DNA of 64,000 nt, from assembly GCA_001599915.1 (NCBI GenBank), contig BCIG01000021.1:124001-188000 (forward strand), given 5' to 3'. A program made the position numbers and the translations under genes. Numbering within the stretch: position 1 is the stretch's first letter; every line of letters starts with the position of its first letter. Origin of the DNA: Symbiotaphrina buchneri (taxonomy: Eukaryota > Ascomycota > Symbiotaphrinales > Symbiotaphrinaceae). The notes under the pieces were generated by a model. The model saw only the letters and a list, made by a program, of their open reading frames with translations, did not search any database and had not been told where the DNA came from. Below, piece after piece: positions 2,681 to 59,944 of the stretch.

Positions 2681-4140
2681 TTTTAAAAACAATAATTTTA
2701 CCTAAGAAAAAAACCTATAATCTTATCTAATTACTTGGTAAAAACCCAAATTAAAAACCAATAGTTTTTGGTAAAATTTAAAAAAACCAAACTAATCTAT
2801 AGGTTTTAACAATTAGTTTTTAAATAATCAAAAGGTAAATTATATAGTATATTATATTAACAACAAGTTTAAATATAATAAAAACAATTAAAACCTAACT
2901 TTATAAAAAAGTGTAAAAAAGGAATTAAATAGTGTAAACTTAAGAGAAACCTGAGACTGAAGCTTTTAAAAAGGAATTTAATAATAATATTAATTTGAAA
3001 ATTAATATTAACCTATTTTTGTTTTTAATAACTGACACGATATATGGGCCTTACTCAGTGACTGTTCGCTAGCCAGTCAGTCGCTACCTCATGACCTTGC
3101 TTATAGCTAGCATTCACTTTATAGCTCTGCACCTTAGCTAGATAGCTTTCTCAATCAACACCATCACTATAAATCCACAAGTTCCTACCAATAACTATGT
3201 TTATTATATATAAAGAAATAGATTTAACAAATTATATTAATTAAAATTTTATTTAAAATTAATGTTTTTTAATTTAAAGTTATAATTTAGATTATTTAAT
3301 ATTTATTATTAAATAATAATTTTCTTTAAAAATTTTTAAATATTTATATGATATAAATTCTTTAAAAGAAATAGTTATATATATTGAATCATAATCTATA
3401 AGAATATAAAGTTATTATTGTATTATTTAAAATATTTTTATATTAAAGAATATATAATTATTAATAAGAAAAACATGTTTATATATTATAAATCTAATTA
3501 ATTCAATTAATAATTATAATAAATATAATTTTCTATTAAAATTATATTAAGGTTTTATTATATTATTATTATTTAAATCATTTAATAATTTTAAATATAA
3601 TATTAAAGAGTTATATTTATTATTTAATAATAATAAAGATAAAGGTTATTTTAGTTATTAAATCATAAAAAAGTTATATTCCCTAATCTAATTCTATATA
3701 TTATTAATAATATTAAATTAGGAAATATTATATATTAAAATTTAAATAAATATTATATATAAATAATTATATTAGAAATGTTAAAATAATTATATATTTT
3801 AATTTTATTTTAATTGTAATTTTTTATCAATAGTAATATAATTAATAAGTAAAATTATTCTTATATATTAATTTTTTTTTAAAATAAACTAGTTAAATAA
3901 TTAACTTTTTAAATCAAACAAAAATATATAAGTTAATATATAAATTAAAACAATATAATATTATTCTTTTTAAGTTAAAGTCAACCCTTTTCTATTCTAA
4001 TATATTGTTATAATCTATCTTTAATAATCTATAGACTATATTAATCATAGTACTTTAATAGTGACAGACTAATCAGTAAATCATAGATTCAAGTTGATAT
4101 TGATAGTTTAATTGGCTTGGTTAATGATTTCAATAGTGGC
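2681..4140. repeat. Very AT-rich, decayed sequence
   Basis: This stretch is dominated by TTA/TAA/ATA runs and has no frame longer than a few dozen codons. It looks like repeat DNA degraded by RIP. The only less AT-rich part is about 3030-3205, described separately. The composition changes sharply near 4140 to ordinary genic DNA. Nothing codable is seen. Confidence 0.7.
3035..3205 (-). mobile_element. LTR-like fossil fragment related to the Ty3/gypsy LTR at 50.6 and 57.7 kb
   Basis: Read on the minus strand, this segment contains GTTGATTGAGAAAGCTATCT and then a GCTATAAAGTGAATGCTAG-like stretch. These follow the same order as the LTR pair at 50631-50812 and 57742-57923 (GTTGATTAAGAAGCTATCTA, then a GCTATATAATGGATGCTAAG-like stretch). 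It has no flanking partner, so a solo or truncated LTR of a related, diverged family is likely. Old and broken. By-eye similarity only, so modest confidence. Confidence 0.4.
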
Positions 4141-4646: not shown

Positions 4647-7600
4647 ATGGTTTTAGGGGCTCAGAACGCATTCCTTGGTGAAGAGGAGAAGCGGCTGAAG
4701 GAAGACACAAAACGGATAAAGTATTGGAAGAAATGGGGTCCTTACGTTGCCGAGAGACAGTGGGCTACTGGTACGTCATCCAGTAAAGGTCCATCGTTCA
4801 CAAACTGACCCACTATCTCTGCAGTACGAGAAGATTACTCGTAAGTCATTGATCACTGTTTTGATGGCACAGAGGCTTACTCCATCTCTAAAGGCATGAT
4901 GGCGATGCATGGAGTCGTAAGTCTCCCTTCATTACTAGAGGGTGTTGAGATATCAACTGACGAATGGTCACAGATTTCTCGCATGAGCAGGCAAGGTCGC
5001 GGACGTTCCGCTGGGGCGAGGATGGCATCGCTGGCGTATCTGATACTCATTGTCTACAATGTGTTGCTTTCGCATTCTGGAACGAACAAGAGTAGGCTAG
5101 GTCCGTACGCCCGACGAATCCCGCTTACATGCAGCAGTGACTTCTTGAAAGAACGGCTGTTTGGTCTCTCCAACCCGCAAGGCAATCACGGAGAGAGTAT
5201 CAAAGAAGCCCATTTCCATCTGGACAATACGCCTACTGTACGTCACGACATGATTGCGCTAAAGAATGCTGGCCTAGAATTAACAATTGCTAGCATTCCT
5301 ACATGAAGTACCTTTACAAGTATCCTCAAGCCAAATTCCCTTACGAAGACTTGATAGAGGAGAACGGGAAACGGACAAGGCTGGAAAAGGAATATCAGCT
5401 AATCGATACTGGTGTTTTCGACGAGGATCGTTATTGGGACATATTCATCGAGACGGCCAAGGAATCGGATGATCCAGATGAACTATTATTCCGAGTCACC
5501 GCGTATAACCGGGGCCCGGAGCCGGCCCCCTTGCATATCATTCCGCATGTTTGGTTCAGGAATACATGGTCCTGGGGACATGAATCTCTTGAAAAGAAAC
5601 CATCCATCCGGCAAATCGGACCTACTACAGCCCATTCGAAGCATTGGAAACTTGGAGACAGATTCCTCGAACTTTCACCATCGCCAGGGGTCGGTGCCAG
5701 TGGACAGGATGTGCAACCGCGTCTAATCTTTACGGAGAACGACACCAATTTTGCCAAGCTGTATGGTGGCAAGAATTTCCAACCTTATGTGAAGGATGCC
5801 TTTCACCGACATGTGGTCGATGGTGAAAAAGATGCAATCAATCCGCAGAATCGTGGCACCATGAGTGCAGCATGGTACGCCTTCGATGAGGATGGTGGAG
5901 TGGCGCCAGGAGAGTGCGCGGTTGTGCGCTTCCGACTCTCCAAGAGGAATGACGGTTACTTGGATGAGGAGCTTTTCGATGATATAATCGAGAAGAGAAG
6001 GGTGGAAGCTGATGACTTCTTCTGGAGAGTCAGCCCGCTACCCATGTCGGACGACCTTAGGAACATACAACGTCAAGCTTTATCCGGTATGTTATGGACA
6101 AAGCAGTATTATCACTTTGTCTGGGATCAGTGGGCAAACGGAGACCCGAATATGCCCCCGCCACCCCCCGGAAGGAAGGCTATCCGGAACCAGCAATGGA
6201 GACACATGTATCTCGACGATGTTCTGTCGATGCCTGACTCATGGGAATATCCATTCTTCGCCGCCTGGGATACTGCCTTTCACTGCATTCCACTGGCCAT
6301 GGTGGACCCCGAATTTGCAAAGAAACAGTTAGATCTTCTCACAAGAGAGTGGTACATGCATCCGAATGGCCAGTTGCCAGCCTATGAATGGAATTTTGGC
6401 GACGTCAACCCACCGGTCCATGCTTGGTCGGTATTTCGAACTTTCAAGATCGAAAGGAAGATGTACGGCACGGAAGACCTGGATTTCTTGGAAAGGGTCT
6501 TTCAGAAACTTCTTCTCAACTTTACCTGGTGGGTTAACCGAAAGGATACGAGCGGAAAGAACGTATTTGAAGGTGGCTTTCTCGGACTGGACAACATCGG
6601 ATTATTCAACCGCTCAGATCCTCTGCCGACCGGCGGGGTTTTAGAACAAGCGGATAGTACGGGGTGGATGGCTTTCTATTGCCTTTGCATGTTAAACATT
6701 GCGTTGGAGCTGGCAAAACACCGCCGGACCTATGAAGACAGTCAGTTCCTTCCCATCCTTCTCGTGCAGTATTGACCATACCGGTGCAGTTGCTTCCAAG
6801 TTCTTCGAGCATTTTATCCTTATCAGCGACGCCGTGACTTATCGGAAAGGTGGAGAAGAGAAATCGCTTTGGAATGAGACTGATGGGTTAGTTTCTATCT
6901 CCCTTTAAGTGAAGCAATCACTCACTGTTCAGTTTCTACTATGACGCCATTTCCTGGGGCGGGCCATGGTCCCAACAACTTCCAGTTCGCTCTCTGGTTG
7001 GCCTCATTCCCCTCTATGCTGTGCTCACCCTCGAACCTGAACTTGTCAACAAATTCCCATCGTTCAAAAAGCGGCTAAACTGGTTCATTGAAAACCGTAG
7101 CGATGTGGCTGAACGAAACCTTGCCAGTATGAAACGTCGTGGCAAAGACGAAAGGCTTCTGCTGGCTCTCGTGAACAGGGACCGCCTCGAGCAGATTCTT
7201 AGGCGGATGCTTGATGAGACAGAGTTCCTCTCCGAACACGGCATTAGATCGCTATCGAAATACCACAAGGACCACCCGTATTCGATGGAGGTCAATGGAC
7301 AGGAATTCAAGGTCAGCTATGTTCCGGGAGATTCCGACAGCGGACTATTCGGGGGGAACAGTAACTGGCGCGGCCCTATCTGGTTGGCTGTCAATTTCCT
7401 CCTTGTGGAGTCTCTCCTACGTTTCTACATGTTCTATGGTGAATCTTTCAAGGTTGAGTGCCCTACCGGGTCTGGTGACTATATGCATCTCGGGCACGTT
7501 GCCGAGGAGTTGCAACATCGCATGCAGCATCTCTTCTCTCGAGATGACGACGGCCGTCGCGCCATAAACGGCGGGAATGACATGCTCGACTATGATCCTA

Positions 7601-8118: not shown

Positions 8119-8482
8119 GTCGCATGTGGCACAGCCTCACTGGGCAGAGTCAGGCGACTATTCTGGTTTGTATCCAGCACCTTCTTTCATTGCTTTTCTA
8201 AGTTAGAGCTCGGCAAGCGCTCGGGAGAGCATCCGAGGTTGCATGAGCAGAATAGAGCGAGCGATAGACATAGCATAACAATGGCATGAGACCGTAGTCT
8301 CTCTAATCCAAGCTACGCTTGATAGAAATCTCGCTCAATGGAGGATTCTTCTGCGATTACACTGAAAATCCTGCTCAGACGCCCAGCACAAGACCGCACT
8401 TAGGACCCAAGTCACCAGCAGAAAGTTGGAACAGGGTGATTGGGCGAGAAAGAGATGTAGTATGTACAATGTATGAAAGCAA
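8119..8482. other. Convergent 3' spacer between the GH63 gene and ATP5
   Basis: About 360 bases between two stop codons on opposite strands. I see no gene, RNA or repeat; probably the two 3' untranslated regions. Confidence 0.6.
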
Positions 8483-43632: not shown

Positions 43633-45957
43633 ATGTCTCCACTGGCTGGACTTCGACGCTTAATCCAACACTCCACCCAGATGTCCTCCTCAGGACAGCA
43701 GCGATCCCATGGCTTCCCCCGGTTGCCGCAGTCTCTGTCCGCTGGCGGCTACGAGATGCACGACTACGATACAACCGGGCACCATCGAGGGCCCACAGCA
43801 CCCAATACAGCCCCCGAGTTGACACCATACCTCGGCCTCCGCGCCCGCCTCTCGCAGACATGGATCAATCGCTGGACCATCCTCTTGGCCCTCGTGCTGG
43901 CCAGGGTCCTTCTAGCCGTCAACAACCTGGACAACGACCTGGCCTCGGCGCAAGCTCAAGCCCTGTCGGCTTGTTCGGACGTCGAGAGCATGGGCAGCGC
44001 CATGGCGTCGATGCCCTACTACCTTTCTCAAGGCGTCAACGAGCTCGCGGCCACGGGCATCGAGAAGACCGTCCATGGCCTCACCGACATGCTCATGCTC
44101 ACCGTGACCGGCGTCGAGGAGCTTCTGCTCTTCTACATCGAATATCTCGTTGGCACTTATGCCTGCCTGATCACCCTCGCCGTCGACGGAAGCCTGCACG
44201 TTGCTTTTCAACTGCTGGAAGATGCCACAAACTTCGTCAACAAGACCATCGGGGGCATCGAGTCGGACTTGGTCAGCGGCCTCACGGATCTGCAGAACGC
44301 TATCAACAAATTGGAGAACACAGTTGACGGCATCCCGCAGCTCTTTGGAGCCACCGGCCTTTCACCGGTCAATCTCACCTCGACGGCGCAGGAGCTCAGC
44401 AACGTGACCATCCCGGCAGACCTCATCGATGCGAATTCTCTGCCGGATTTTGACCAGGTCAAGACCGCCATGTCCAACCTCATCAGCGTGCCTTTCGATG
44501 ATGTGAAGGGCCTCATCAATCAGAGTTTCTCGGGCTACACGTTTGACCGGTCCGTCTTTCCCGTACCACAGAGGGAACAGCTGACGTTTTGCTCTGACAA
44601 CGACGACATCAATGACTTCTTCAATGAGCTCGGAAAGGTGGCGAACACGGCCAGAAAAGCGTTCGTTGCCATAATGATCATCCTTGCTATCGCTGCTTGC
44701 GTGCCTATGGCATATCGCGAGATCTGGGGATGGCGTACCACAAAAAACCGGGCTCAGCTCATCAGTAAGAGCCTCATTTCCAAGAATACGTTTTGATCAA
44801 TTAATGTCCTTTTGTTGAACAGTTTTACTACCACGAATTCATTCGACCCCATCGACGTTGTCCAGATTGCCAGTCGCCCATACTCGAGTACAGTCGGTAT
44901 CAAGGCAGCCTCTCACTTCGCTTCGAGCCGACGCCAGATTCTTGTGAGGTGGTTTGTGGCATATTGTACGACCACGCCTGCGCTGTTCGTCCTCTCCCTG
45001 GGAATTGCAGGTCTGCTGTCATGCTTGCTGCAATACATTTTACTCAAAGCCGTCGAGAAAGAAGCCCCAAAATTGGCCAACGAAGTAGGAGACTTCGCAG
45101 GGCAGGTCGTCGCTGCTTTGACCAAGGCGTCCGCCGAATGGGCAAATGGAACCAACTCGGTCATTATCGATACCAACACGGACATCAACGACAAAGTCTT
45201 TGGCTGGGTGAATACCACAACCAGCGCCTTGAACAACACGCTGAACGAAGGTATGGACGAGATGAACAACTTCATCAATAGCACCTTTGGCGGGACGGTG
45301 CTGTATGATCCCATCCAAGGTGTCTTGGGCTGTCTCATCGGCCTCAAGGTCGCCAGTATCGAGAAAGCCTTGACCTGGGTCTCGGACAATGCATACATCA
45401 GTTTCCCTCTGCTTCCTAACAATACATTCAGCCTTGGTGCTCAAGCTAGCATTTCAAACACCTCCGACCCTAGCCAAAGCTTCCTCGCAGATCCCAGCGG
45501 CGCGACAGCCGACAAGATCACGGATGCGGTCGCGACAATGACGAACGCACTGGCCAAAGGCATCAAAGATGAAGCCGTCATTGCCAGCGTGCTCGTCGCT
45601 GTGTGGCTACTTGTCGTTCTCATTGGCCTCATCCGTACTTTACTGATGTTCTTCGGACGGGACAAGGTGCGCGGTGAAGGAGGACCGACATACTACGACC
45701 CCGACGAGAGCGTTCATGCCGCTCCGTCCGAGCCAGCGCCGGCATACAGGCCGAGCACGGCACCACGGGTCTCTGTCTTCTCTCCCGTCTCTCCAGAGTC
45801 CGACATGATCACTAGGACATCACCGGATGACGGCTTGTCGCCATGGAACAGAAACGAAAAACTCGGCTTTGCGGGGCAACGGAAAGTGGTCGAAGGTAAC
45901 CCCGGGCTACATGTCCGGCAGAGTAGCTACGGGCAGATGGGAAATGAGAAGAGCTGA
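43633..45957 (+). CDS. PRM1: Plasma membrane fusion protein Prm1
   Basis: Two exons, 43633 to about 44765 and 44823-45957, giving about 755 residues. The Prm1 pattern is clear: a cytoplasmic N-terminus, a first membrane helix (WTILLALVLARVLLAVNN), a luminal domain with conserved Cys and many Asn-X-Ser/Thr sites, a membrane helix before WGWRTTKNRAQLIS (AFVAIMIILAIAACVPMAY), then in exon 2 FDPIDVVQIASRPYSS, another helix (ALFVLSLGIAGLLSCLLQYI), a second luminal domain and a last helix (VIASVLVAVWLLVVLIGLI). The tail is Pro/Ser-rich. Prm1 stabilises plasma-membrane fusion during mating and hyphal fusion. The oddity is the splice junction. The only GT donor (after ATCA, GTAAGA) leaves phase 1, but the acceptor TTGAACAG requires phase 2; one more G before the GT would fit. 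Confidence 0.92.
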
Positions 45958-46582
45958 GCGAACGACAGGGATGAACGACGCGTCATGACGGTACGACTCT
46001 TGGTCTATAGAAAATTGGCGCGGTTTTGCATGAAGCGTCGACGTTTGGTCCTCTGTCTCTTTGAACCTCATGGCAGGTCGTGTCTTGCATTATTTGGCCG
46101 TTTCGGCCGTTGGCAGTTGGAGGCGTTGGCTCCATGACTAGCTAAAAAAAGAACATAAGTAGTTTGACTTCAAAAAGAATTGAAAGTCTGGCAGACATTT
46201 CGATTCCTGCATGATTCCCTTTTGAGCTGCGTGCTGTCGCCATATTTGATCGACCGTGAGCTGCCTGCCTGCCGCCCAGGAACGTCACAGTTTAACGCCG
46301 CAGGAGCCTGCTTCAAGAAATCAATTCTGAGCAACGAGGCCGCGATGCCATACACATGTACTCCTTGTTATCCGCGCCACTAACTCCTTTGACTCCGACG
46401 CGTCTTTTTTCGACCGCGATAAACGTAGCCTTCATCCAGCCATGAAATACCATTCAACTTGCTGCTCCATTGTGTAGATAATTAGCTTTGGGAAGGCAAA
46501 CTTCGATCGGCAAGGTAGCTCAAGGCGGGGCAGGACCCAAATCCCGTCGTGGAACTCTTGCCCACGGAGTGCTCAGGGGAGA
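45958..46582. other. Convergent spacer between PRM1 and ERG9
   Basis: About 625 bases between opposed stops. No gene, RNA or repeat seen; the short frames near 46170-46383 are unsupported. Confidence 0.5.
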
Positions 46583-48041
46583 TCACGAGCGGGCCGTCAT
46601 GAGCCAGGCCGCTCCTGCCACCAAGATTGCGATGACTGCTGAAACGGCAAACAGTCGACCAGTAGTGGACCAGTCTCCTTCCTTGAAGCCGGCAACCACA
46701 GCCTTCTCCTTGTTCTCGCTCCTGGAGCGCTCGACGCTCTGCATTGCCAGGGCTTCAGCAAAACTCTCAATCTGGACACGGTCAGCTGCTGCCTGATAAT
46801 ACACCGTTAGCAGCTGCGAGAGCACCGACCTCCTTGCACGCAGTGCTGATATTCAAGAAATTGGGGTCCTTGGGGTCGTTCTTTTGCCGAATTCTGCGGG
46901 CATAGCGACAAAAGACCTTGCAAACCCGCTCGAGGTCTTGGCTGGACTCGAGCATAAGCTGGAACGCATCACCCTTGGTGATCTTGACGTTTCGCTTGAA
47001 GATGGCCGGGTTACGGAATGTTAACTCCAGCGTGGCCATGGCCATGGATTGGGGGATGGCGCAAAAGTTGAAGACGCTCTGCTCGCGCAAACCAACAAGA
47101 TACGACAAGCAGTCGGTTGCATGGCCCAGAGCATTCAAGACCATCTCGGAGCTGCAGTTGAGGGCGAGCTCGAGATTCTCAGGCTCGAACAGGTCTTCGA
47201 ACTTATCGACGTGCTTGGACCAAATCTCTCTGGGCCAGAACCGGCGGCCATCATCATAGTCTTCACGGACGTCGCGAATGATATTGTTCTTCTGCAGAAA
47301 TAAACCCATCGATTTGTACAGATGGAAACGGTTGATCAAGCTCGCCTCGCCCAGCCCCGCCTCGACGAAGAGGCGAGTCAGACCCTCGCCGACCACCCCA
47401 GCCACGTGCCAGCAATAGAGATCGTAGTCGTCGACGGTGTTGACGCTGGCATCACCGAATGCCGCCTTTCGGGCGAAATCGGCCATGCCGTTCCCCATCT
47501 TGTCAGTGACATCCTTGATGATCTCTTGGTAGGGACGTTTCAGATGCCTGAATTCGGTAATGACGTTGTCGAACTGCACCAATAATTCGCGGTCCTTTTC
47601 CTCCGGGCGATTGCCGGTATAGGTCCAGCCATCCTGGTCCAGGTAATCCTTGAATTCTCGAAGGCGCGGCTCCTTTTCCTCGAGAGGGATCGAGGTATCA
47701 TCCTCAATGGTATCAAGGCCACGCAGTACCAAGTAGAAGACACACACGGGCAATAGTAGCTCTGGGTGTAGCTCCTTGACTACGGAGCTAAAGCTGCGGC
47801 CGGTCTCGTCCAGGAACCCGAAGCACGCCTTCGCTGTTGGGGACTCGTATTTCTTGTTCCTTTCGTGTATAGGGCTATGCCGCAGTTTCCTGAGACGGAT
47901 CATGAACGCCGGTTAGCAAGCTTCGCCAACCACACCACGTGTGCAGGACTTGGGGGATACAGGCTGGGCCCACCATTGAACGATCATTCTTAGCTGATTC
48001 AGGTGAAGGGCAAAGTAGAGGGTATCCGATGCGAGACCCAT
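46583..48041 (-). CDS. ERG9: Squalene synthase (farnesyl-diphosphate farnesyltransferase)
   Basis: Three exons on the minus strand: 48041-47974, 47889-46830 and 46792-46583, with all phases matching, giving 445 residues. Exon 1 gives [20 protein letters not shown] and, with exon 2, the typical [14 protein letters not shown]. The aspartate-rich, magnesium-binding motifs are both intact: [14 protein letters not shown] at about residue 80 and [14 protein letters not shown] at about residue 220. [20 protein letters not shown] and KRNVKITKG also match. A C-terminal membrane anchor lies at about 422-441 ([20 protein letters not shown]). The enzyme couples two farnesyl diphosphates to squalene with NADPH at the ER, the first committed step of ergosterol synthesis. 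The linker before the anchor is less conserved, and the last intron is only 37 nt, so that boundary is a little less sure. Confidence 0.97.
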
Positions 48042-48086
48042 GGCGGCAGGTGATGGCACCAGCCGGGGAGAGAGAGGGAGAGAGAT

Positions 48087-48131
<45 letters not shown>

Positions 48132-48318
48132 AGGTGAGGAGAAAGAGAGAGAGGGAGAGGGAGAGGCTCTCAGCGGCAACGAGTATATACCCGTCGCAAT
48201 GGGTACAAGGATGAGTGAGGATGGCAACCTGAGTCGTAAGATGCGAACTTCCCTTACCGGTAGAGCGTACAAGTACATACACAGGGCGGGGATAATCCGA
48301 AGGAGGAAAAGGGGTACG
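48042..48318. promoter_or_regulatory. ERG9 upstream region with a GA microsatellite
   Basis: About 280 bases between the ERG9 start and the transposon island. From about 48066 to 48168 it is nearly pure purine on the plus strand (GA and GGGAGA units), so pyrimidine-rich in the sense of ERG9 transcription. The transposon end lies only about 290 bp from the ERG9 ATG. Confidence 0.7.
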
Positions 48319-48328
48319 GGTTAGTCCG
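48319..48328. repeat. Left 10-bp target-site duplication of the outer element
   Basis: GGTTAGTCCG, repeated exactly at 59935-59944 on the far side of the element. A 9-11 bp duplication fits Mutator-like elements. Confidence 0.85.
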
Positions 48329-48440
48329 CGCGGTGCTTCGGAAGCGTTGAAATCAAAAGTTTTTTAACCGAAAAAGTTACCGAATTTTAACTACATCGCC
48401 TATGAAAACCCCTACCAAATTAGTATGACGACCACCATCT
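48329..48440 (+). repeat. Left terminal inverted repeat of the MULE-like element
   Basis: Matches the reverse complement of 59826-59934, with only a few differences in about 108 bases, mostly at the outermost positions. Unlike the interior it retains normal base composition. Confidence 0.88.
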
Positions 48441-48562
48441 AGTACGTCAGGCCGGTCAAACTTACTTTCTGATTTGTCTGCAACCTCTTGAAAGCCGAAA
48501 TAGGAAGCCTTGAAGCTATTCAGAACATCACTCCTTGCTGTCGTCTTTACCTACCCAGGTGT

Positions 48563-48596
48563 ACAGGACAGCTGCTGTTGTTGTAACAACTGTCCT
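48563..48596. other. Subterminal stem-loop in the left arm of the MULE-like element
   Basis: CAGGACAG and CTGTCCTG form a perfect 8-bp stem around an 18-base loop that itself contains the palindrome GTTGTAACAAC. It lies about 120 bases inside the left TIR. Confidence 0.5.
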
Positions 48597-48726
48597 GCAC
48601 GTTTATAAGTCATGTACGTCACCTGGAAGCTTACTGTTACTCTAGATGATTTCTTATTACCTTGTAGCTCTTACCTGCTTTGGTCATCTATCATCATAGT
48701 CTTCTATCTCTATTATCACCGTTGTA

Positions 48727-50276
48727 ATGGACCCTACCAAGGAGGAAAAGGAGATATAATGTCTATATCATGATCTTGATCAAGAGATAGTTCTTTATAT
48801 CTAATTACTTATTAATAACCTATCTAAAAAGTACTTTATATTATTGATAAAGGAAAAGAAGTTTAAAACAATTATAAACATTATAGATTAACTTTAAAAT
48901 TACATTTTTAAAGGGTTTTATAATCTTTAAATTGTTAGACTCTAAGAAGGTAAATTATATAGTTGTTACCTATATCTATTACAATAAACAAACATTAAAT
49001 ATATAAGGTTTAAATAATTATAAAGTTTTTAAAAACACTAAATATAAACCTATAAACTATTAACAAGAAAATACCAAGGTTCTTGTTAAAAATTATTATT
49101 AAAAGATATATTTTATACTATAAAGATTTTTTTTAACATAGATATAAAAAAGATCTAAACTTTATATCTTTTTAAATAGTTAACAACTTATTTTTACAGT
49201 TATAATATATTTCTAAACCTACTGGTTTACTTTTATTATAAAAAACATAATTAAAAATAAATAACTATTATTATAAATGTTATTTTATATTAAAAAGAAA
49301 AACTATCCTTTATAAAGAATATTAAACTTTTTTTATTAAAAAAACTTTAAGTTCTTTAAAATAATTATTATAATACTATTTATTGTTTACTAAGTTAAAC
49401 TTATATTCTAAAGAATATCTTAAAAGGTTTTATATACTATTTTAATAGTTATAAACTGTTATAAAGATTTTATTAATAATACAAAGTTAATATAAATAAA
49501 AAGTTAAAGTTAAAAAAATTAAAATAGATGTTTTTTTTATAATTTTAAATAAATAAAGTTTGTTTAAAAATTCTATATAAACTATCTTTTAATAATCAAT
49601 ATAATGTTTAACATTAATAAACTTTAACTTTTATTATTAATTATAATAGATATTATTAATATAAATAAAACTTTTTTAATAACTTATAGCTTTAAAATCA
49701 ATAAATCCTATAAAGTCTTTATATTTATTAATAAATGTTTTTTTTACCTAGTATTTAAATAACTTTTAATGTATATTATTATTCTTACAGATTTTATTTT
49801 TGATTTAATATTAACCTATTTAAATTGAATATTAAAGATAATATTATAGTTTTATAAGTAATATATTGTAAAAACTATCTTAAAACATTATATAAAACAT
49901 AATTATAAAAATAACTATAAAAAAGAGATTTAAAAACTTATATAGATCTATTTCAAGTTATAAACTAAAGTAAACTTGGTTTATAACTGTAAAACTTTAA
50001 AAACCTGGTTTTAAAACCTGAAAAAGAAATATCTTAAATTATATTAGATTTTTAAAGAAAAATAAGTTATTTATTGTTATATAAAGTTATATATAAGACT
50101 AAATACAAACTTTATATAACAGGAAAAAAGATATTACTATGTTATAAAGCTGTTTTTGAATCTTTAACTTTTATTAGATGATATAATTGGTTAAATAGCT
50201 AATTAAATAAAAAAAACTGTTTAAAAGACTTAAAAAGTTAAAGATAAAAGATGATAAAACAATTTTATAATTAATT
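48727..50276 (+). pseudogene. Decayed 5' part of a probable transposase gene
   Basis: From the ATG at 48727 a coding-like stretch reads MDPTKEEKEI, stop, CLYHDLDQEIVLYI before dissolving into AT-rich sequence. The stop (TAA) is what RIP makes from CAA. With the right-hand part (58348-59445) this suggests an original gene of roughly 2.6 kb, split by the inner insertion. No domain is recognisable by eye. Confidence 0.4.
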
Positions 50277-50570
50277 ATTAACAAGGATGTATAAGGTTTA
50301 ATAAGATAGAAAATTCTTCTATACAGGTTTATAAAATATAATAATAACAAAAAAGACTATATTATAAAGGTAAAAAACAATTTTCAAAGTATTTTTTTAT
50401 ATAAGCTAAGTTTTATTATCTAAAAAGGATTAGATTATAAAAGAAAAAAAGTTTTAATAGTATTTTCTATTAAATCTTTCTTTTTAAATATAATGTTTCT
50501 TAAAAGTAAAAAGTTAACTAATTATATTTAACAATATAAGTAAAACTTATCTATATTATCAATAATAATA
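50277..50570 (+). repeat. Left arm of a near-perfect 294-bp inverted repeat
   Basis: Identical to the reverse complement of 58054-58347 apart from one base (G/A within ATAATGTTTC). It begins ATTAACAAGGATGTATAAGG and ends near TATCAATAATAATA. Very AT-rich. Together with the right arm and about 185 bases of loop it would form a foldback or MITE-like element of about 775 bp, into which the LTR element later inserted. Confidence 0.88.
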
Positions 50571-50630
50571 ATTAATATCTGTTATATTAAAGATATAAAG
50601 ATAAAAAACTTAGGTAAAAAGGAAATTTAT

Positions 50631-50812
50631 TGATAAGGATCAACATGGAGGAGTATTGAATAGTAAGAAGGTTGATTAAGAAGCTATCTAACTGCAGGGT
50701 AGCAAGCTATATAATGGATGCTAAGTCATGTGACTATAAACAAGTACAATGTTAGCAATTAGCTAGTAAGGAGCACTCAGTGAGTGACTACCCTATACAC
50801 AAGTCTATAACA
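50631..50812 (-). repeat. LTR (3' LTR in element orientation)
   Basis: 182 bases starting TGATAAGGATC and ending ATAACA, the 5'-TG...CA-3' form. Pairs with 57742-57923, same length. Confidence 0.9.
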
Positions 50813-53800
50813 ACTGTTGCAATAGTAAAAATAAAACGTCATCCTGATGTTTCTAACTAATATAAAATATGTATATCAAAGTCAGTGATTTCTGATGTGA
50901 AGGCACTATCTGTCTTGACAAACTATATATATTCCCTTTAGAATAACTGACCGATCTGACATGTCTGATAAGTGATTGCTGCAGACAAGGACTTATATCA
51001 TCATAATCCTTGATCAGATCAGAAGACAACTCCAGTAAATCCTTATCATACTACTTGTTGAACTCTAGGCCATAACCTTTCTACTTAACTAGATATTAAT
51101 ATCGCTGATATCCTCTTCATAGACGCCGGATGCATCGATCCAAAAGATACTCAATTTCAAAACTCTTCTATTCATTATTGTCATCCTTAGTCTCAACTGG
51201 ACTTGGATGATCAGGACATGGATAACGATATAGGTTATATCCTATAGCTGGTTTAAGCTGACTGATTAAGATGACCAGGTGGATGTTCTACCTAGCAGGC
51301 AGGTCAAGATGATAGACAAGGTGTCCTATTCTCTTAAGGACCTTAAAGGGTCCTATTTGTTATCCTGACAACTTCTGATTCAGCCTGTTAGCAACTTGAT
51401 AGCTATGATAGAGTTTTAGGAAGATTAAATTGCTGATATATAGGTTGATCAGGATGTGGCAGCGATTGTAATACATCTTAACCATTATATTGCTGAATGT
51501 AATCTAGTCTTAGGCCTTCTGTATATGGATTTGCCTTGTTTTAGCTATGCTGGACATGTTTGAAAGCTGTTAACCCACTAGGAGGTTAAGATCATCATTC
51601 AGCTTGTATCTATATATAACTTCATTCAGGGCTTATCCAGTAATTGTGTTTGTTGTATTATTTAGCTGTAACTCCAGCTGTTTACAGAAACTGGACCAGT
51701 CTGACTCAAGGATATTGGTTTGCTCCCTTTTATGAATGTTGTCCTTAAAAGTTTTAATTGCATATGTCAGTATCCAAGTAAACCAGAAACACAGAGCAAT
51801 TTCAATAATCTAATTCATATACTTACTCTGACCATTCATCTGAAGGTAATAGGCGATCAAAAACAACAGTTTCATACTTAGGCAGGTAAAGATAGCTCTC
51901 TATATATCAGATAAGAATTTCAGGTTATGATCAGATATGATCCTGGCTGATACTCCCCAATATACAGTCCTATCCAATAGAACATTGGTCTATTATTCAA
52001 CAAAGTAGTTATCTTATCCAGGCATCAGGATAACAGCCTTAGACAGCTTATCCATAGCTGTTATGAAAGAGTTGTATTTCATGGATGACAGTTCCGGCAA
52101 ACCTAGTATGAAATTGATAATAATCATATTAAAAGTTTATAGCAGGATCTCAAGTGGTTATAGCATTCTGTACAGTTTATATCAGCTTATCTGATTAACC
52201 TTGTATTGTGGATAATGGTATATATATTGTTTAAGATGATAAGAGAGCTTCCTGAGATATAAACTAGCAACAATCTGGCTATAAGTATAATGAAAGCCTG
52301 TATAACTGGCTTTGTTATAAGCTAGATGGAAAACATCTTATTCTAGAACTTATGGTATGTATAGCTGCTCATGATCATCATCTTCATTTTAATAGTAAAG
52401 AAGCCTGTTCTTTAAGACAAAACGGTTCTTGAATCAACACTGTTGATTTATAACAGCTGGCTGCTCTGGCTGCTCTGGCTGATCCACCTGGGCTAGCTTG
52501 CAAGATACTGAGTTGATATCAGCAGATAACTTATTATCAGAATCTGAATCTGAATCTGTTAACTTATATTTATCTGTATCTTACTCAGTTAAGTCTGTAT
52601 CTTGTTGCTTAGTCTGAACAACCTCTAAGATCTTCTACTATTGTTTATTAACAATGTAGACTTTATAAAGCTTTATCTTGAACTTATCTAATAGTTCTAC
52701 CAGGGTAACATAGTGAACAAAGACCTAGAAGGAATCAAGAACACTATCTAAGTCTTCTTCATGACTGACTGGGTTCAGATTAATAGCTTTCTCATATAGT
52801 TGAAACAGGGTATCTGGGATGATATAGTGTCTGCCTGCCTTATGTTGCATATCAAGGTTAAATTAAGACAGGAATATCAAAACTCTCACTAGCTACAGAT
52901 TCATTTTATCTATAGATATAATACCTAAGAGTTAAAACTGTTTAATTATCCTGATTATTATAGTATGATCAGTATAGATAATAACCGGATAAGCCTCAGG
53001 AACAAAAGCCTTGATTAAATGCTGGACCTTCTTGATTGCCCAGATAAATCCTGTAACTTCTAGCTCCATCGGTTAATAGTGTATTTCTAGCCTATTCAAC
53101 TCTTTACTCAAGAAGAGGATAGGCTTAATATCAGCCTTGGTACAGGGAGACTTATCCTTATTCTATTCTTTAATATGATAAATCATAATCCTGAAGCCAT
53201 GTTCCTTGGATGCATCTATGTTGACATACAGCATCTGGGAACGGTTAAAGTGTACCAGGAATAGCTTATTGTAAAATGTATCCTGAATCAGTCTAAAGGA
53301 ACAGACTTTACAGTCTGATAGCTTGGTTAGATATATATTCTAGGTATATCAATATTGTTGGTTTTGATTGTTCTTTAGGGCATTTTTGAACAAAAGGACC
53401 TTTTATTGCCTGAGTAGCTTTACAAGCTGTGAATAGTACAATATCTGTTTCCAGAGATACTCAGTCAGACCCAGATATAACTTTAAAGCCTTAAGGGTTA
53501 CAGGGAACTTAAATCTCAGTATGGCTTAGACCTTCTTATCAATAATCATAAGCCTAAAGCGATCAACTTGCTATCTAAACAGCATCATAATTAGATATCT
53601 GATAAACATCTTATTTAGTAAAAGTGTAATTCACTTGCTAGCTAGTAGCTGAAAGACTGCATCCAGGTATTAAACATGCTTATCCAGGATACAGCTAAAG
53701 ATGATGATATTGTCTATATAACAATAAGTATACCTCTGATAAGGACAAAGTATACAGTCTATATGGTACTGTATGAAAGCAATGTTGTTATAATAGCCTA

Positions 53801-56800
53801 TAGATGCTACTGAAAAGGTCTCCTAGCCATGGTAAATCATAATTGTCAGCTTATGACAATCTTGCCGGATAATAAGCTACTAATAGAAGAAAATCAGAAT
53901 ATCAATCATAGTGATATACAGACAGTCCTAAACAACAGACAGGATATCATCCTAAACAGGGAACAGGTAATTATCTGGCTTAGTGATCCGATTTAGATTA
54001 TAGATATCAACTATTACATATCTCTTCTTCTTTCTGTTGATAATCTTCCAGATAATGAACACAGGGTAGGAGAACAGAGTTAAAGAAGTAGTCCATTCTA
54101 TATGACCTTGGTCCTGTATCTTGTTAAAAACCTTGTTAATCAGCTTCTTAACATTGTAACCTTGTTAATAGATCAGGTACAACTGTCATGGTTCTTTCTG
54201 TTTCCAATTAGCGATAAAAAGGACTTGTATATACTCAGATTTGAATATGTCAACAATCTGACCATGGTTAATCCAGAGACTAACATATTGCTCTAAGATG
54301 GGAATGACTCAGCTAACAATGTCTTAAAAGCCATATATAGTGATTTTGTTCACCAGGGTTGTTTCAGGTATAGATTCCAGAGTACAATCTAAAGCAACAA
54401 GCTTAGGTAGCTGCTTGTAGGTTGGCTCTGTTATAATAGCAAAAGAATTAAGACTTTCAATTCTATTAGTTGCCCTGACTGACTAATGATAGGCAAAGAC
54501 TGCATAACATTCCTTGTTGTCATAGTCAGCTATTATACCTACTTAAATCTTATTCGGTATCTTGATTGGATAAGGAACATTGTTTTGAACTTGGACAAAG
54601 GAGAAACTTATATTGACAACATGAGTATATACTATACAGTTATAATTTTTGTAATTAGGTTTAAATACTAAGTTATGATTATCCATCAGTTTGTTTGCCT
54701 GGATAAGCACTTTAGCTATTGAATAGGCCAGGATAACGGTGTTTTTCATGGTCAGTATGGACTGATTCATTTATCCTGACTAAAGAATGATTATCAGGTC
54801 TGTCATCATATCCTGACAGCACTGGAGGGTGAGCTATTGAGTCCTAAGGTCGATTTTTATATCTTTAGGACTGAGGATATCTATGTTAATCAATATCCTG
54901 GCTTATAGGTCATCTATGATATAGGCTTCCTGAATCAGTAGACCTTTAACAGGCTTATCATTCAAGTGTCCAGGTATATGTATATACAGTAGCATATATT
55001 CAGTAGCTGAATGAATCTTTAAACCAATGTTTCAGACTGTTACTGGCTCCTTTATATGGTAGATAGTGATATCCAGGACCTCTTGATGCATAAAGTCATG
55101 ATCTATCAAGGTTATGATACAGTTGGTATCCAGATAGACGTTCTAGACAAGCCTTTTTGATGATAGCTTGATATTGACTGTTATATAATGTTAACCTTGA
55201 AAGCTGTATCCTGGGAATCGGTTCTAAAGTGCTGTAGATATGATGATTTAAACTGGAGATGTATAATTTGCGTTAACTTATTAGGTCTGTTTATCTAACT
55301 TAGTCTCTAAGACTGATTTAGTTAGAGCTACCTTGGTGGGAATCAAGGCTATTGATTCTAGGGTAGTAATATAGGGTACTGTGATCTTGAGAGTAGCACA
55401 CCGGCAACAGGTCTTATCTTGAACATATTTATAGAGTTTGTTGCCTGATGGAAAAACCTTCTCATAATGTTGATATTGGTAGGTAGCTTTGCTTAGGACT
55501 GTCCTATCATAACAAAGAAGTGATCGGTTATATACAGGTTGTTATTATAGTTATATATATCATTATGCTCAGAATAGCTGATGTCAGCTAGCCCTTAGAA
55601 GGCATTATAATCATTGTTATATGCTTCAGAGTTATAAGCACCTTGATCTAGATCAGCCTCCTGATTCAATGGCTGCTGTTTATATAGCTGGTTAGCTAAG
55701 TCTAGACCTTGGTCATAACTGTCAACTGACTCTGTTAAGTCAGCTTGGTAGGCTCTCTGAGGATGGAAGTTAGAATTGAATTATCCTGGATTAAACTATC
55801 CAGACTGTAAATAACGGTTCCTGTTGTATGAGTTGCCTCCTGAATTGGACATATAACGGTTAGGATTGTTTGAGATATTGATGTTTACTCCTGTTAGGCT
55901 GGCCATGATCTGTAGACAAGATAGCAAGGCAGGTAATGCATGTCTGTCACTCAGGTTGCCGTTAGAATAGTACTGTTGATTCTGGTAAATATTGAATCTT
56001 GACTGATATGGTTGGAAGTTAAACTGCTGAAAACAAGGGTTGAATCCTCCATGGAAAGGTGGCCTATAGAACGGATACTGACTGAATCAAGGCTATTGGT
56101 TATTACCCCTGTTCTAATTGTTGTAACTATTATCTCGGGAATCTTGTAAGTCACAAGGTCTCTTAGTATAAACATGCAAGTCTTAATAAGTAAAATCATT
56201 AAACCAGTTAGCTTATTTACACTTCAGTATCTGTATGAACTGCTGGATGGTAATGTTGTATTCAGGTTTGTTAACTATATGACATAGTGGTATATTGAGA
56301 TATATCCAGGTTTCCATAACAATGCTAAAGTTGTCTATAGCTTGGTTAACGGCTTATACAGCAGATTAGACAGCATTGATATACTCTACAACAGTATAAT
56401 TGTTTCAAACGTCCTTGATGATGTATCTGACTGAATTGAGTTTCTTTCAAACATCTGTAGGAGTAGGTCTGAAACGTATCTTTAGTTGCTGACACCATCT
56501 TTCAACCAGATTTAGGTGATTAATAATACCGATTCAAAAGATATCATTCAGCTTAAAGTTCTATTATGATTAGGTGAGATTATACAGATAAATCTCAAGG
56601 TTCTGACGGATCTTGACTGNGTCCTAAGTCAATACAGTAACTTGAATACAGTTTATAAAGCTAAAGATATCTTAATAGTATATTTTATCATCTTTATCAA
56701 TGATGTCTCCTATATTAGCTATCTAGCATGTCCGGGTAGAAGAGACCAATCTCAGCTATCTTCTAGTAGCTATTACTACCATTGGGACCGGCTGGCCCAG

Positions 56801-57741
56801 GCGGACCTGGTTTACCGGATTCACCAGGTAGACCAAAGAGGCTATAACCTTGATTATCTTAATTAGCTCATCGGATAGAAGTTTTATAACTTGCTAGATA
56901 GCAGTCTATACAGTAGCCGTCATACCAGGTAGGACTTGGTCAACAGGGTTCAGGTTATCTATATTATTATAGGGTATCTTATCTTTAACTGAGGTATTTG
57001 GACTAGGTGACAGCTAACTGAAATAACTTTGGTTTGATGCTGTTGATTGTATTGGTCTTGATTGAGATGGATGACTAAGTAGAGATTGAGCTTTAGGAAG
57101 AGGGCTTGATCCAGTAGATAATAGCTAATGCTCTTTCTTAAAACAATAATAGGTTTTAATATATTAGAAATCGGCGGTTTTGAGTTTGAATTCATCTATT
57201 GCTTAATTGAAGTCCTACTGAATAAGCAGGAACTCTGGATGGGGTAAGGTGATGAGGTCTGGAACAGATGATGACAAGGTGGAGAAGGTATACATATGAT
57301 GTGTTTGACCTTGGTTACAGCCGGCTGAGTCTTAGCTAGCTGAGGCCCTTTTACCTAATAGTAATGGATAGCAATAATAGGTTATAACTGCCTTAATGAA
57401 AAGATGCATGTCTTAATCAAGCGTACAAGCTGAAGGATGTCTGTTTTGAAATATATCATGAAGCTGATATGCAACGGTCAGGGTCTTAGATGATAGAGTA
57501 AGCAAGCTGAGTATCTCTCTGATCGCTAGATTGCTAATTAAGCTGTCTGAATCAAGAGTCTTGATTCAGGTGTTGGTTGGAGAGGTTATAGGTAGACAGG
57601 GTAGGAGGGAGCAGACATGACCGCCCAGATGGCCGTCTGTTTATGATATTTTGCTCAGAGCTAATAGAGGACTTCCTGATTGTTGTTCTAGATTGATTGC
57701 TATATACTAACTGGTATCACCTTGTGATATTGCTACCAGGT

Positions 57742-57923
57742 TGATAAGGATCAATATAGAGGAGTTTTAAATAGTAAGAAGGTTGATTAAGAAGCTATCT
57801 AACTACAGGGTAGCAAGCTATATAGTGGATGCTAAGTTATGTGACTATAAGCAAGTGCAATGCTAGCAACTAGCTAGTAGGGAGCGCTCAGTGAATGACT
57901 ACCCTATACATGAGTCTGCAACA
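57742..57923 (-). repeat. LTR (5' LTR in element orientation)
   Basis: 182 bases, a direct repeat of 50631-50812 with about 18 differences. Just inside it, on the minus strand, lies ACCTGGTAGCAATATCAC, where a primer-binding site would be expected. Confidence 0.9.
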
Positions 57924-58053
57924 TTTATATAGATTCCTTTATTAAATTTTCTTTTTAATTAATAAAACAGCTTTTAAATAATTATATTGTTAAAACAATT
58001 GTTTTTTTCTATTTCTTAGATATTAAACTTAATATATAATATATTACCTTTTT

Positions 58054-58347
58054 TATTATTATTGATAATATAGATAAGTTTTACTTATATTGTTAAATAT
58101 AATTAGTTAACTTTTTACTTTTAAGAAATATTATATTTAAAAAGAAAGATTTAATAGAAAATACTATTAAAACTTTTTTTCTTTTATAATCTAATCCTTT
58201 TTAGATAATAAAACTTAGCTTATATAAAAAAATACTTTGAAAATTGTTTTTTACCTTTATAATATAGTCTTTTTTGTTATTATTATATTTTATAAACCTG
58301 TATAGAAGAATTTTCTATCTTATTAAACCTTATACATCCTTGTTAAT
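58054..58347 (-). repeat. Right arm of the near-perfect 294-bp inverted repeat
   Basis: Reverse complement of 50277-50570 with a single difference. It lies 130 bases outside the right LTR; the left arm ends 60 bases outside the left LTR. Confidence 0.88.
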
Positions 58348-59445
58348 AGATTTATAATTTAAAAGTTGTTTTTATAACTTAAAAGTTTTAATACCATGAT
58401 TAAACTTTAAATCTTTAAGATATTATTACAAACTGTTTTACAGATTATTATCTATATTATTGTATACTTAATACTGTTTTTTAAATCATTAAAATAACTA
58501 AAGAACTTAAATAATTATAAGTTTAGTTTTTTATAGATTAATTTAAAAAGTTAATAAATATTTTTCTATTAAATACAGGATATATTCAACAGGTTAAAAA
58601 AAGCCTTTTTGTTTAACTTTTATTGTTAAAAACATTCTATAAATACTGATTTAAGTTTTATAATAAAACTATATAATAAGAATTAACTAGTTAAAAGGTT
58701 ATAAAACATAATATAAAATAACATAAGATAATAAAAACAATAATAATAAAGATCTATAAAGAAAAACAAAAGATTTAAAATATAATTAAGTTTTAATATC
58801 AATAACATTTATTATTATCTAAGTTAATTATCTAATATGTTTAATAACTAAAATATAATTATATTAATAAAATACTGATTAAAAAAGAAAAACTGAATAA
58901 AGTTTATCTAGAAATACTATTTTGATCTTTTATTAAGATCAAAAAACAAGTTTTAAACAATAAGAAAACTATAATTATTTAAGTTACTAAAACCTTAATA
59001 AAGAAACAAGTTATAAAAAAGCTAGAAATAAACCTTAATAAAGATAAAAATTATATCAAGTAATAATAATAAGAATAAGGTTTATTTAAAGAAGTTTAAG
59101 TAATTGTTAATATAAAATCTGTAATTTTTCTAACTATAAATACTAATAATAATAATATTAATAATTATATTCTTGAATTAAAGTACTATTGATATTAAAA
59201 GAAATACATCTTTTTTATACTATGATTATAACAATGTTAAAGACTTTAATATATGGTATAAAGATGTTATATTTCAAAAGCTTAAATCTATAGCTTTTAA
59301 ACTATCTTTTCTACATTATAACAGCTGTTTAATTAAATCTTCTGTAAAAGTTCAAGATAGTTTACAACAAGCTTTTAAACAACAACAACATTGACAACAA
59401 GGTACAAAGTCTACAAGGAAGTCTTCTAAGAAAAAGAAATCATGA
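58348..59445 (+). pseudogene. Decayed 3' part of a probable transposase gene
   Basis: AT-rich sequence that becomes readable at its end: a Gln-rich segment (QQAFKQQQH), then QQGTKSTRKSSKKKKS and a stop at 59443-59445 on the plus strand, a typical basic tail. Between them one stop fits a RIP-type C-to-T change of CGA. No catalytic motif could be read by eye. Confidence 0.35.
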
Positions 59446-59825
59446 AATGGTTAGTCTGGTTGTAACAAACAGGTGGGCAGGAGGTTTGCACTGACTCAAG
59501 GTGCTATTCTAAACTGCTGCTGGTGTTCTAGTATACAGTGTGCGCGTCTGAAGTGCCGACTCCTCGCTTCGTCTAGGGCTAAACCCTAGGCGTTAGGCCC
59601 GATCCGATCCCCTAGGCTGGCGCCCTTCCTCCGCGTGCAACACTGGTTGTCATGAAAGGAAATCAGTCAGAAACAACGTTTCAACAACGTTGTACATAGC
59701 ATATATAGAATCAGCAGACTTATAGGACTTATATAATTAACTACACCAAATTCCGACCGAAATTACTATCTTCAAGTCATTGGAAAAGCTTCAAGCAATC
59801 TATCTGAACAGTCTCGCTGGCGATG
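59446..59825. other. Right subterminal region of the MULE-like element
   Basis: About 380 bases of near-normal composition between the transposase remnant and the right TIR. It includes a GC-rich patch at about 59560-59635 with a CTAGGG-CTAAA-CCCTAG hairpin, and a short ACAACGTT repeat near 59680. Confidence 0.5.
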
Positions 59826-59934
59826 ATGGTGCTCGCCATACTAATTTGGTAGGGGTTTTCATAGGCGATGTGGTTAAAATTCGGTAACTTTTTCGGTTAA
59901 AAAACTTTTGATTTCAACGCTCCTGAAGCACTCC
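59826..59934 (-). repeat. Right terminal inverted repeat of the MULE-like element
   Basis: Reverse complement of the left TIR at 48329-48440; ends immediately before the target duplication at 59935. Confidence 0.88.
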
Positions 59935-59944
59935 GGTTAGTCCG
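59935..59944. repeat. Right 10-bp target-site duplication of the outer element
   Basis: GGTTAGTCCG, exact copy of 48319-48328. Confidence 0.85.

Follow-up and report, generated by a model that had tools for sequence, protein, structure and literature searches.

The window analysed here is a 64,000-nt stretch of the Symbiotaphrina buchneri genome (contig C21, positions 124,001 to 188,000), which was compared with the whole assembly (23.38 Mb in 82 contigs). It carries a nest of decayed transposons whose outermost member is a putative Mutator-like DNA transposon bounded by long terminal inverted repeats (TIRs). This element lies between what we take to be a squalene synthase gene on its left (46.8-47.9 kb) and a presumed xanthine dehydrogenase gene on its right (from 60.2 kb); both were recognised by eye from their reading frames, and the genes adjoining the element seem, again by eye, to resemble those of filamentous ascomycetes. 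Within the outer element are a fossil Ty3/gypsy retrotransposon with two long terminal repeats (LTRs), a pair of near-identical inverted arms around that fossil, and a separate 182-bp insert (Table 1). An initial annotation had read the locus as a three-level nest, with a foldback element as the middle level. All of the structures that it described are present, but the one at the middle level is unlikely to be a transposon; a fourth structure, the 182-bp insert, was absent from its account. We hold with good confidence that the locus comprises a Mutator-type element that decayed by repeat-induced point mutation (RIP), received Ty3/gypsy and solo-LTR insertions, and underwent a local duplication that produced the arms.

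Table 1. Features of the nested locus (positions in the window).
Feature	Position	Strand	Remarks
Putative outer Mutator-type DNA transposon	48329..59935	+	11,607 bp including inserts; TIRs, duplication, family
Left TIR	48329..48439	+	inverted match 48333-48439
Right TIR	59825..59935	-	inverted match 59825-59931
Left 9-bp target duplication GTTAGTCCG	48320..48328		flanks outer element
Right 9-bp target duplication GTTAGTCCG	59936..59944		flanks outer element
Possible start of decayed frame (weak)	48727..48765	+	ATG at 48727, then stop; edge of A+T-rich tract
A+T-rich decayed interior, left	48765..50275		G+C ~0.145; no Pfam match
Left arm, near-identical inverted repeat	50276..50571	+	296 nt
Left 5-bp duplication TTTAT	50626..50630		Ty3/gypsy element
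Ty3/gypsy LTR retrotransposon fossil	50631..57923	-	no intact frame
LTR, 3' of minus-strand element	50631..50812	-	182 bp
LTR, 5' of minus-strand element	57742..57923	-	182 bp
Right 5-bp duplication TTTAT	57924..57928		Ty3/gypsy element
Right arm, near-identical inverted repeat	58053..58348	-	1 mismatch of 296
A+T-rich decayed interior, right	58349..59365		G+C ~0.155; no Pfam match
Possible end of decayed frame (weak)	59182..59445	+	70 open codons, stop, basic tail, final stop
Left 5-bp duplication CTGGT	59456..59460		flanks 182-bp insert
Solo-LTR-like insert	59461..59642		182 bp; TG...CA ends
Right 5-bp duplication CTGGT	59643..59647		flanks 182-bp insert

The TIRs of the outer element form an inverted match of 107 nt with 5 mismatches, close to the ~108 bp first estimated. 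When the left TIR was used to search the genome, 21 matches were obtained: two were the ends of the window copy, three were single relics (two on contig C1 and one on C17), and the rest were ends of short elements. Two of the short elements, used as queries, retrieved one more, on C79. Nine short elements of 406-584 bp are complete (C2, C5, C7, C8, C15, C16, C17, C29 and C79), and a tenth, on C76, is truncated by the contig end. With the element ends set from the shared terminal sequence, identical 9-bp flanks were present in the window copy and in all but one of the nine complete short elements, which makes 9 of 10, and every 9-mer was different. The exception was the short element on C8, where an 8-nt word lies out of register. 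The match between the outer TIRs is not due to chance, because other copies have the same ends and 9-bp duplications of their own; a genome search with the outer TIR had been proposed as a check on the initial annotation, whose ends for the element proved to be real. The use of family members to set the ends placed the boundaries at 48329 and 59935. It also corrected the length of the flanking duplication, which does exist but had been given as 10 bp: GGTTAGTCCG is present on both sides of the element, the family comparison indicates a duplication of 9 bp (GTTAGTCCG), and the tenth base appears to be an extra G shared by chance. By coordinate arithmetic the outer element without the LTR insertions measures ~4.1 kb; subtraction of the unit formed by the inverted arms, should it too be an insert, gives 3.35 kb. 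The initial annotation put the element at about 3.5 kb without inserts.

The short elements are very similar to one another. Compared with the copy on C7, those on C5 and C2 are 99% alike, that on C76 97% and that on C29 96%, and the C16 and C17 elements are 99% alike. As copies that are 96-99% alike occupy different sites, the family moved recently, in the form of miniature copies. The short copies and the window copy have a right end in common that extends past the TIR (71-74% over 164-176 nt), and a C1 relic also matches this region of the window copy (74% over 235 columns). The short relatives have the features of miniature inverted-repeat transposable elements (MITEs), being short and present in multiple copies, with TIRs as in a longer element and target duplications of their own. 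A functional transposase source for them was not found in the assembly, and they would have been moved in trans by a transposase that this assembly does not show. A single TIR on C17 (308,869), followed by DNA of low G+C content, was considered as the end of another, longer copy of the outer element and rejected: a right TIR was not found within 29.7 kb, and other repeats make up the low-G+C stretch. In their short, non-coding form and in TIRs that match those of a larger DNA transposon, the miniature copies resemble the mimp and mFot5 MITEs described in Fusarium oxysporum, of which one mFot5 copy is interrupted by a retrotransposon (PMC3599309). They differ from mimp and mFot5, which that paper places in the Tc1/mariner superfamily, by their long TIRs and 9-bp duplications. 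The locus documents a fungal Mutator-type family with miniature copies that were recently mobile; the assembly yielded no working transposase for it.

The evidence that places the outer element among the Mutator-like elements (MULEs), as the initial annotation proposed, consists of its ends and its target duplications, and it supports that assignment. Long TIRs are not present in all MULEs; in the window copy they extend over 107 nt, and its duplication is of 9 bp, as are those of 8 of the 9 complete short relatives. A range of 8-11 bp is given for MULE target duplications, and TIRs of 85-99 bp for the fungal Hop subgroup (PMC6446971). The active MULE Hop of F. oxysporum is described as 3,299 bp long; its TIRs measure 99 bp, its duplication 9 bp and its transposase 836 aa (PMC2725143). 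The outer element resembles Hop in its ~100-bp TIRs, its 9-bp duplication and its size of ~3.3 kb without inserts; it differs in that the window copy is dead with an unreadable transposase and in its termini, which are CGCGG and CGGAG and lack the GGNAA stated for Hop1 and the VdMULEs (PMC3441728). VdMULE1-3 of Verticillium dahliae (3.4-3.6 kb) are likewise long-TIR members of the Mutator group in an ascomycete, but are reported with TIRs of 73-86 bp, an 8-bp duplication seen once, and GGNAA termini (PMC3441728). As GGNAA is absent and a transposase cannot be read, the outer element is not assigned to the Hop/VdMULE group.

Several results weigh against the Mutator assignment. No transposase domain above the Pfam cut-off was found in the six frames of both interior parts (with X at stops), an absence that says little in an interior so decayed; the only sub-cut-off listings were PKD_2 (E 0.054) and ODV-E18 (E 0.97). 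The sole PF10551 match in the genome, a MULE on C18 with three stops, is unrelated to the outer element in ends and in sequence, and tblastn with pieces of it returned nothing better than E 0.60. The unreadable transposase and the termini without GGNAA (PMC3441728) would also suit an element of another superfamily that makes 9-bp duplications, outside the Mutator group. This origin is distinctly improbable, as TIRs of ~107 bp combined with 9-bp duplications fit the range given for fungal Hop-group MULEs (PMC6446971, PMC2725143).

The composition of the Mutator-like element changes sharply from its ends to its interior. The left TIR has a G+C content of 0.40, the regions adjoining the two ends have 0.42 and 0.44 (the latter, at the right, including the 182-bp insert), and the interior has 0.145-0.155; that of the neighbouring genes (43633-48300) is 0.55. 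The initial annotation had contrasted TIRs of normal composition with a RIP-degraded interior, and the contrast itself stands (0.40 against ~0.15). Part of the normal composition towards the right end is due to the insert that it missed. The TA/AT ratio of the interior is 1.25-1.28, compared with 0.53 over 43633-48300, and the (CA+TG)/(AC+GT) ratio is 0.47-0.60, compared with 1.27. With the thresholds for RIP dinucleotide indices taken as general background, the interior bears the signature of CpA-to-TpA change, and RIP is the most likely cause of its decay, to judge from these ratios.

Some observations do not favour RIP. The first dinucleotide index is passed by the TIR and its surroundings as well, and so is not specific here; the Ty3 element fails the second; no second copy of the interior that could have triggered RIP was found in the genome; and the interior has no period-3 signal (z of 1.12 at the left and 0.17 at the right, against 32 in the gene control). 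General mutational decay, or an A+T-rich sequence of foreign origin, would account for the missing second copy and for the missing remnant of coding periodicity. We regard this as unlikely, given that the dinucleotide ratios are as expected for CpA-to-TpA change and that other repeats here also lie in A+T-rich blocks, such as the flanks of the other Ty3 copies (G+C of 0.18-0.25). A search with the left flank of the interior gave no second copy, and the only match to the left interior was weak and A+T-rich, on C1 (501,570). This match is not a convincing second copy: it was better than that of a reversed control, yet A+T-rich sequence matches the C1 locus indiscriminately, and an A+T block with no relation to the element matched there better still.

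The long copy is dead and appears to encode nothing usable. Its low-G+C tract (~48,765 to ~59,365) is closely framed by an ATG (48727) and a stop (59443-59445); the two hint, and no more, at where a lost transposase frame may have begun and ended. The 70-codon open stretch near the right end (59182-59391) matched nothing but itself in the genome.

The Ty3/gypsy fossil in this decayed interior is clearly delimited, in agreement with the initial annotation, by its two 182-bp LTRs with TG...CA ends and the TTTAT duplication. On the minus strand, Pfam matches above the cut-offs were obtained for RNase H (E 8e-10) and for a Tf2-1-like SH3 domain (E 1e-12), and a weak match, below the cut-off, for reverse transcriptase (E 0.011). 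The order reverse transcriptase, RNase H, SH3 is that of Ty3/gypsy elements. The LTRs, 5-bp duplication and domain order are shared with Ty3/gypsy elements that carry the Tf2-1-like SH3 domain (PF24626), from which the fossil differs in that its frame is not intact, its reverse transcriptase match is weak and its integrase core was not matched in Pfam. Its G+C content is 0.36. The LTRs differ at 18 of 182 positions; 17 of the differences are transitions, 10 of them in CpA context. A genome search returned further copies with both LTRs on C6 and C11, and two weak LTR matches; the C6 and C11 copies likewise have TG...CA ends and 5-bp flanking duplications of their own, and lie in A+T-rich flanks.

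Minor observations concern the same element. A weak minus-strand match to its LTR (80% over 54 columns) is present at 3108-3159 of the window, beside an A+T-rich block, and is perhaps an old LTR fragment. A short Gly/Pro-rich stretch in the first part of the element (56790-56850) gave a weak, sub-cut-off collagen match, and the assembly has one N within the element, at 56620.

The 182-bp insert near the right end of the outer element has TG...CA ends, a target duplication (CTGGT) and no interior, as a solo LTR would have. Its sole other copy in the genome is on C16 (95%), between TAGTG and TAGCG, where the segment interrupts a dispersed repeat (stretch L050). The same repeat is uninterrupted twice on C17 (stretch L034, ~5640-5680 and ~8130-8170). 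The uninterrupted repeat serves as an internal empty site, which identifies the 182-bp segment as an independent insertion. A solo LTR is its likeliest nature; a full-length parent element was not found in the genome, which held just the two matches.

The least expected feature of the locus is the pair of inverted arms. Nested dead transposons are ordinary, and near-identical arms in decayed DNA are the sole odd point. The arms lie 7.5 kb apart around the Ty3 element and agree at 295 of 296 positions (the initial annotation gave 294 bp), with a lone mismatch at 50495 in C-to-T context. Among 18 stretches (the window and 17 others), this is the sole inverted repeat of at least 80 bp that is at least 95% alike and has a G+C content below 0.3. 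Arms older than the Ty3 element should have diverged as much as its LTRs or more, and these have diverged less: 1 difference in 296 compared with 18 in 182. By Fisher's test the contrast has p = 2e-7 when counted per site and 0.001 when counted per G/C base; for non-CpA changes the values are 0.0004 and 0.019, per site and per C/G site respectively. This leaves three accounts: the arms were spared the RIP to which the multi-copy Ty3 element was exposed, they are of later origin, or they are homogenised.

We favour, without strong preference, a local inverted duplication of DNA that had already decayed over a separate mobile element. More specifically, it is conceivable, though we would not call it probable, that the arms were formed or rewritten after both the decay and the Ty3 insertion, by template switching or gene conversion across 7.5 kb, and have been kept identical. 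Template switching between inverted repeats is described as homogenising their arms (PMC8604942). The arms here resemble the repeats of that report in being much more alike than their age would predict, and differ from them in that those are short coding repeats in yeast, whereas these are 296 bp long, are separated by 7.5 kb and lie in the DNA of a decayed transposon. Gene conversion rates are reported to be higher in H3K9me3 chromatin in a fungus (PMC10294615).

Other results count against a late origin of the arms. CpA changes alone do not distinguish the arms from the LTRs (p = 0.26), and the low divergence of the arms may come from a scarcity of mutable sites only. In addition, a 9-nt direct repeat, TTTATAATT, occurs 3 nt to the left of the arms and 2 nt to their right, with a chance probability of ~0.012, for flanking words that were sought with free offsets after the sequence had been seen. 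Past the arms, the outer flanks were more alike than random interior pairs (0.037); the value for the inner flanks was 0.28. The direct repeat next to both arms would suit a mobile foldback element, of ~775 bp without Ty3, that entered the outer element before Ty3 did, as the initial annotation supposed; removal of this 775-bp unit brings the outer element to ~3.35 kb, near the 3,299 bp given for Hop (PMC2725143). The arms match only each other in the 23.4-Mb genome, in a search that skips common words, so the dispersed copies with the same arms that mark a foldback family were not found (two matches, both at this locus). Moreover, the unit shares the surrounding G+C content of 15%, and joint decay should have made its arms differ. 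The flanking duplication is marginal, and the foldback element is a doubtful reading.

An assembly error in an A+T-rich stretch could also produce such arms, as near-perfect inverted copies in DNA of 15% G+C mark a spot where assemblers fail, and the N in the Ty3 element shows that the data are imperfect. An error of this kind is very unlikely here: a complete LTR element with matched TTTAT duplications stands between the arms and holds them 7.5 kb apart, and a one-base difference in C-to-T context is not expected from a copied read.

With the local duplication as the favoured origin of the arms, the following order of events is suggested. A Mutator-type cut-and-paste transposon entered between the two genes and duplicated 9 bp of its target, as its ends and its family show. 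Its interior then decayed to ~15% G+C, most likely by RIP. The Ty3/gypsy element inserted into this interior, as its TTTAT duplication and LTRs show, and decayed as well. The 182-bp segment derives from an independent insertion near the right end, probably of a second LTR element whose LTRs recombined to leave a solo LTR. The arms around Ty3 may have arisen by inverted duplication of the already decayed DNA, and template switching or gene conversion between the two may have made them identical or preserved their identity. The initial annotation held that the order of insertion could be read directly; this fails at the level of the arms, since they are less diverged than the LTRs between them. 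Nesting alone does not fix the order of events, as the LTRs inside this pair of arms have diverged further than the arms themselves. If conversion has kept the arms identical, decayed heterochromatic repeats would not evolve freely, and an inverted repeat in silenced A+T-rich DNA would be actively held identical while the LTRs nested in it diverge.

Apart from the nest, the window begins with a large inverted repeat (1-2045), whose arms (1-849 and 1237-2045) are 82% alike and which touches the window edge. Sequence resembling this repeat was seen by eye in stretch L034 on C17, where inverted pairs are 80-83% alike.

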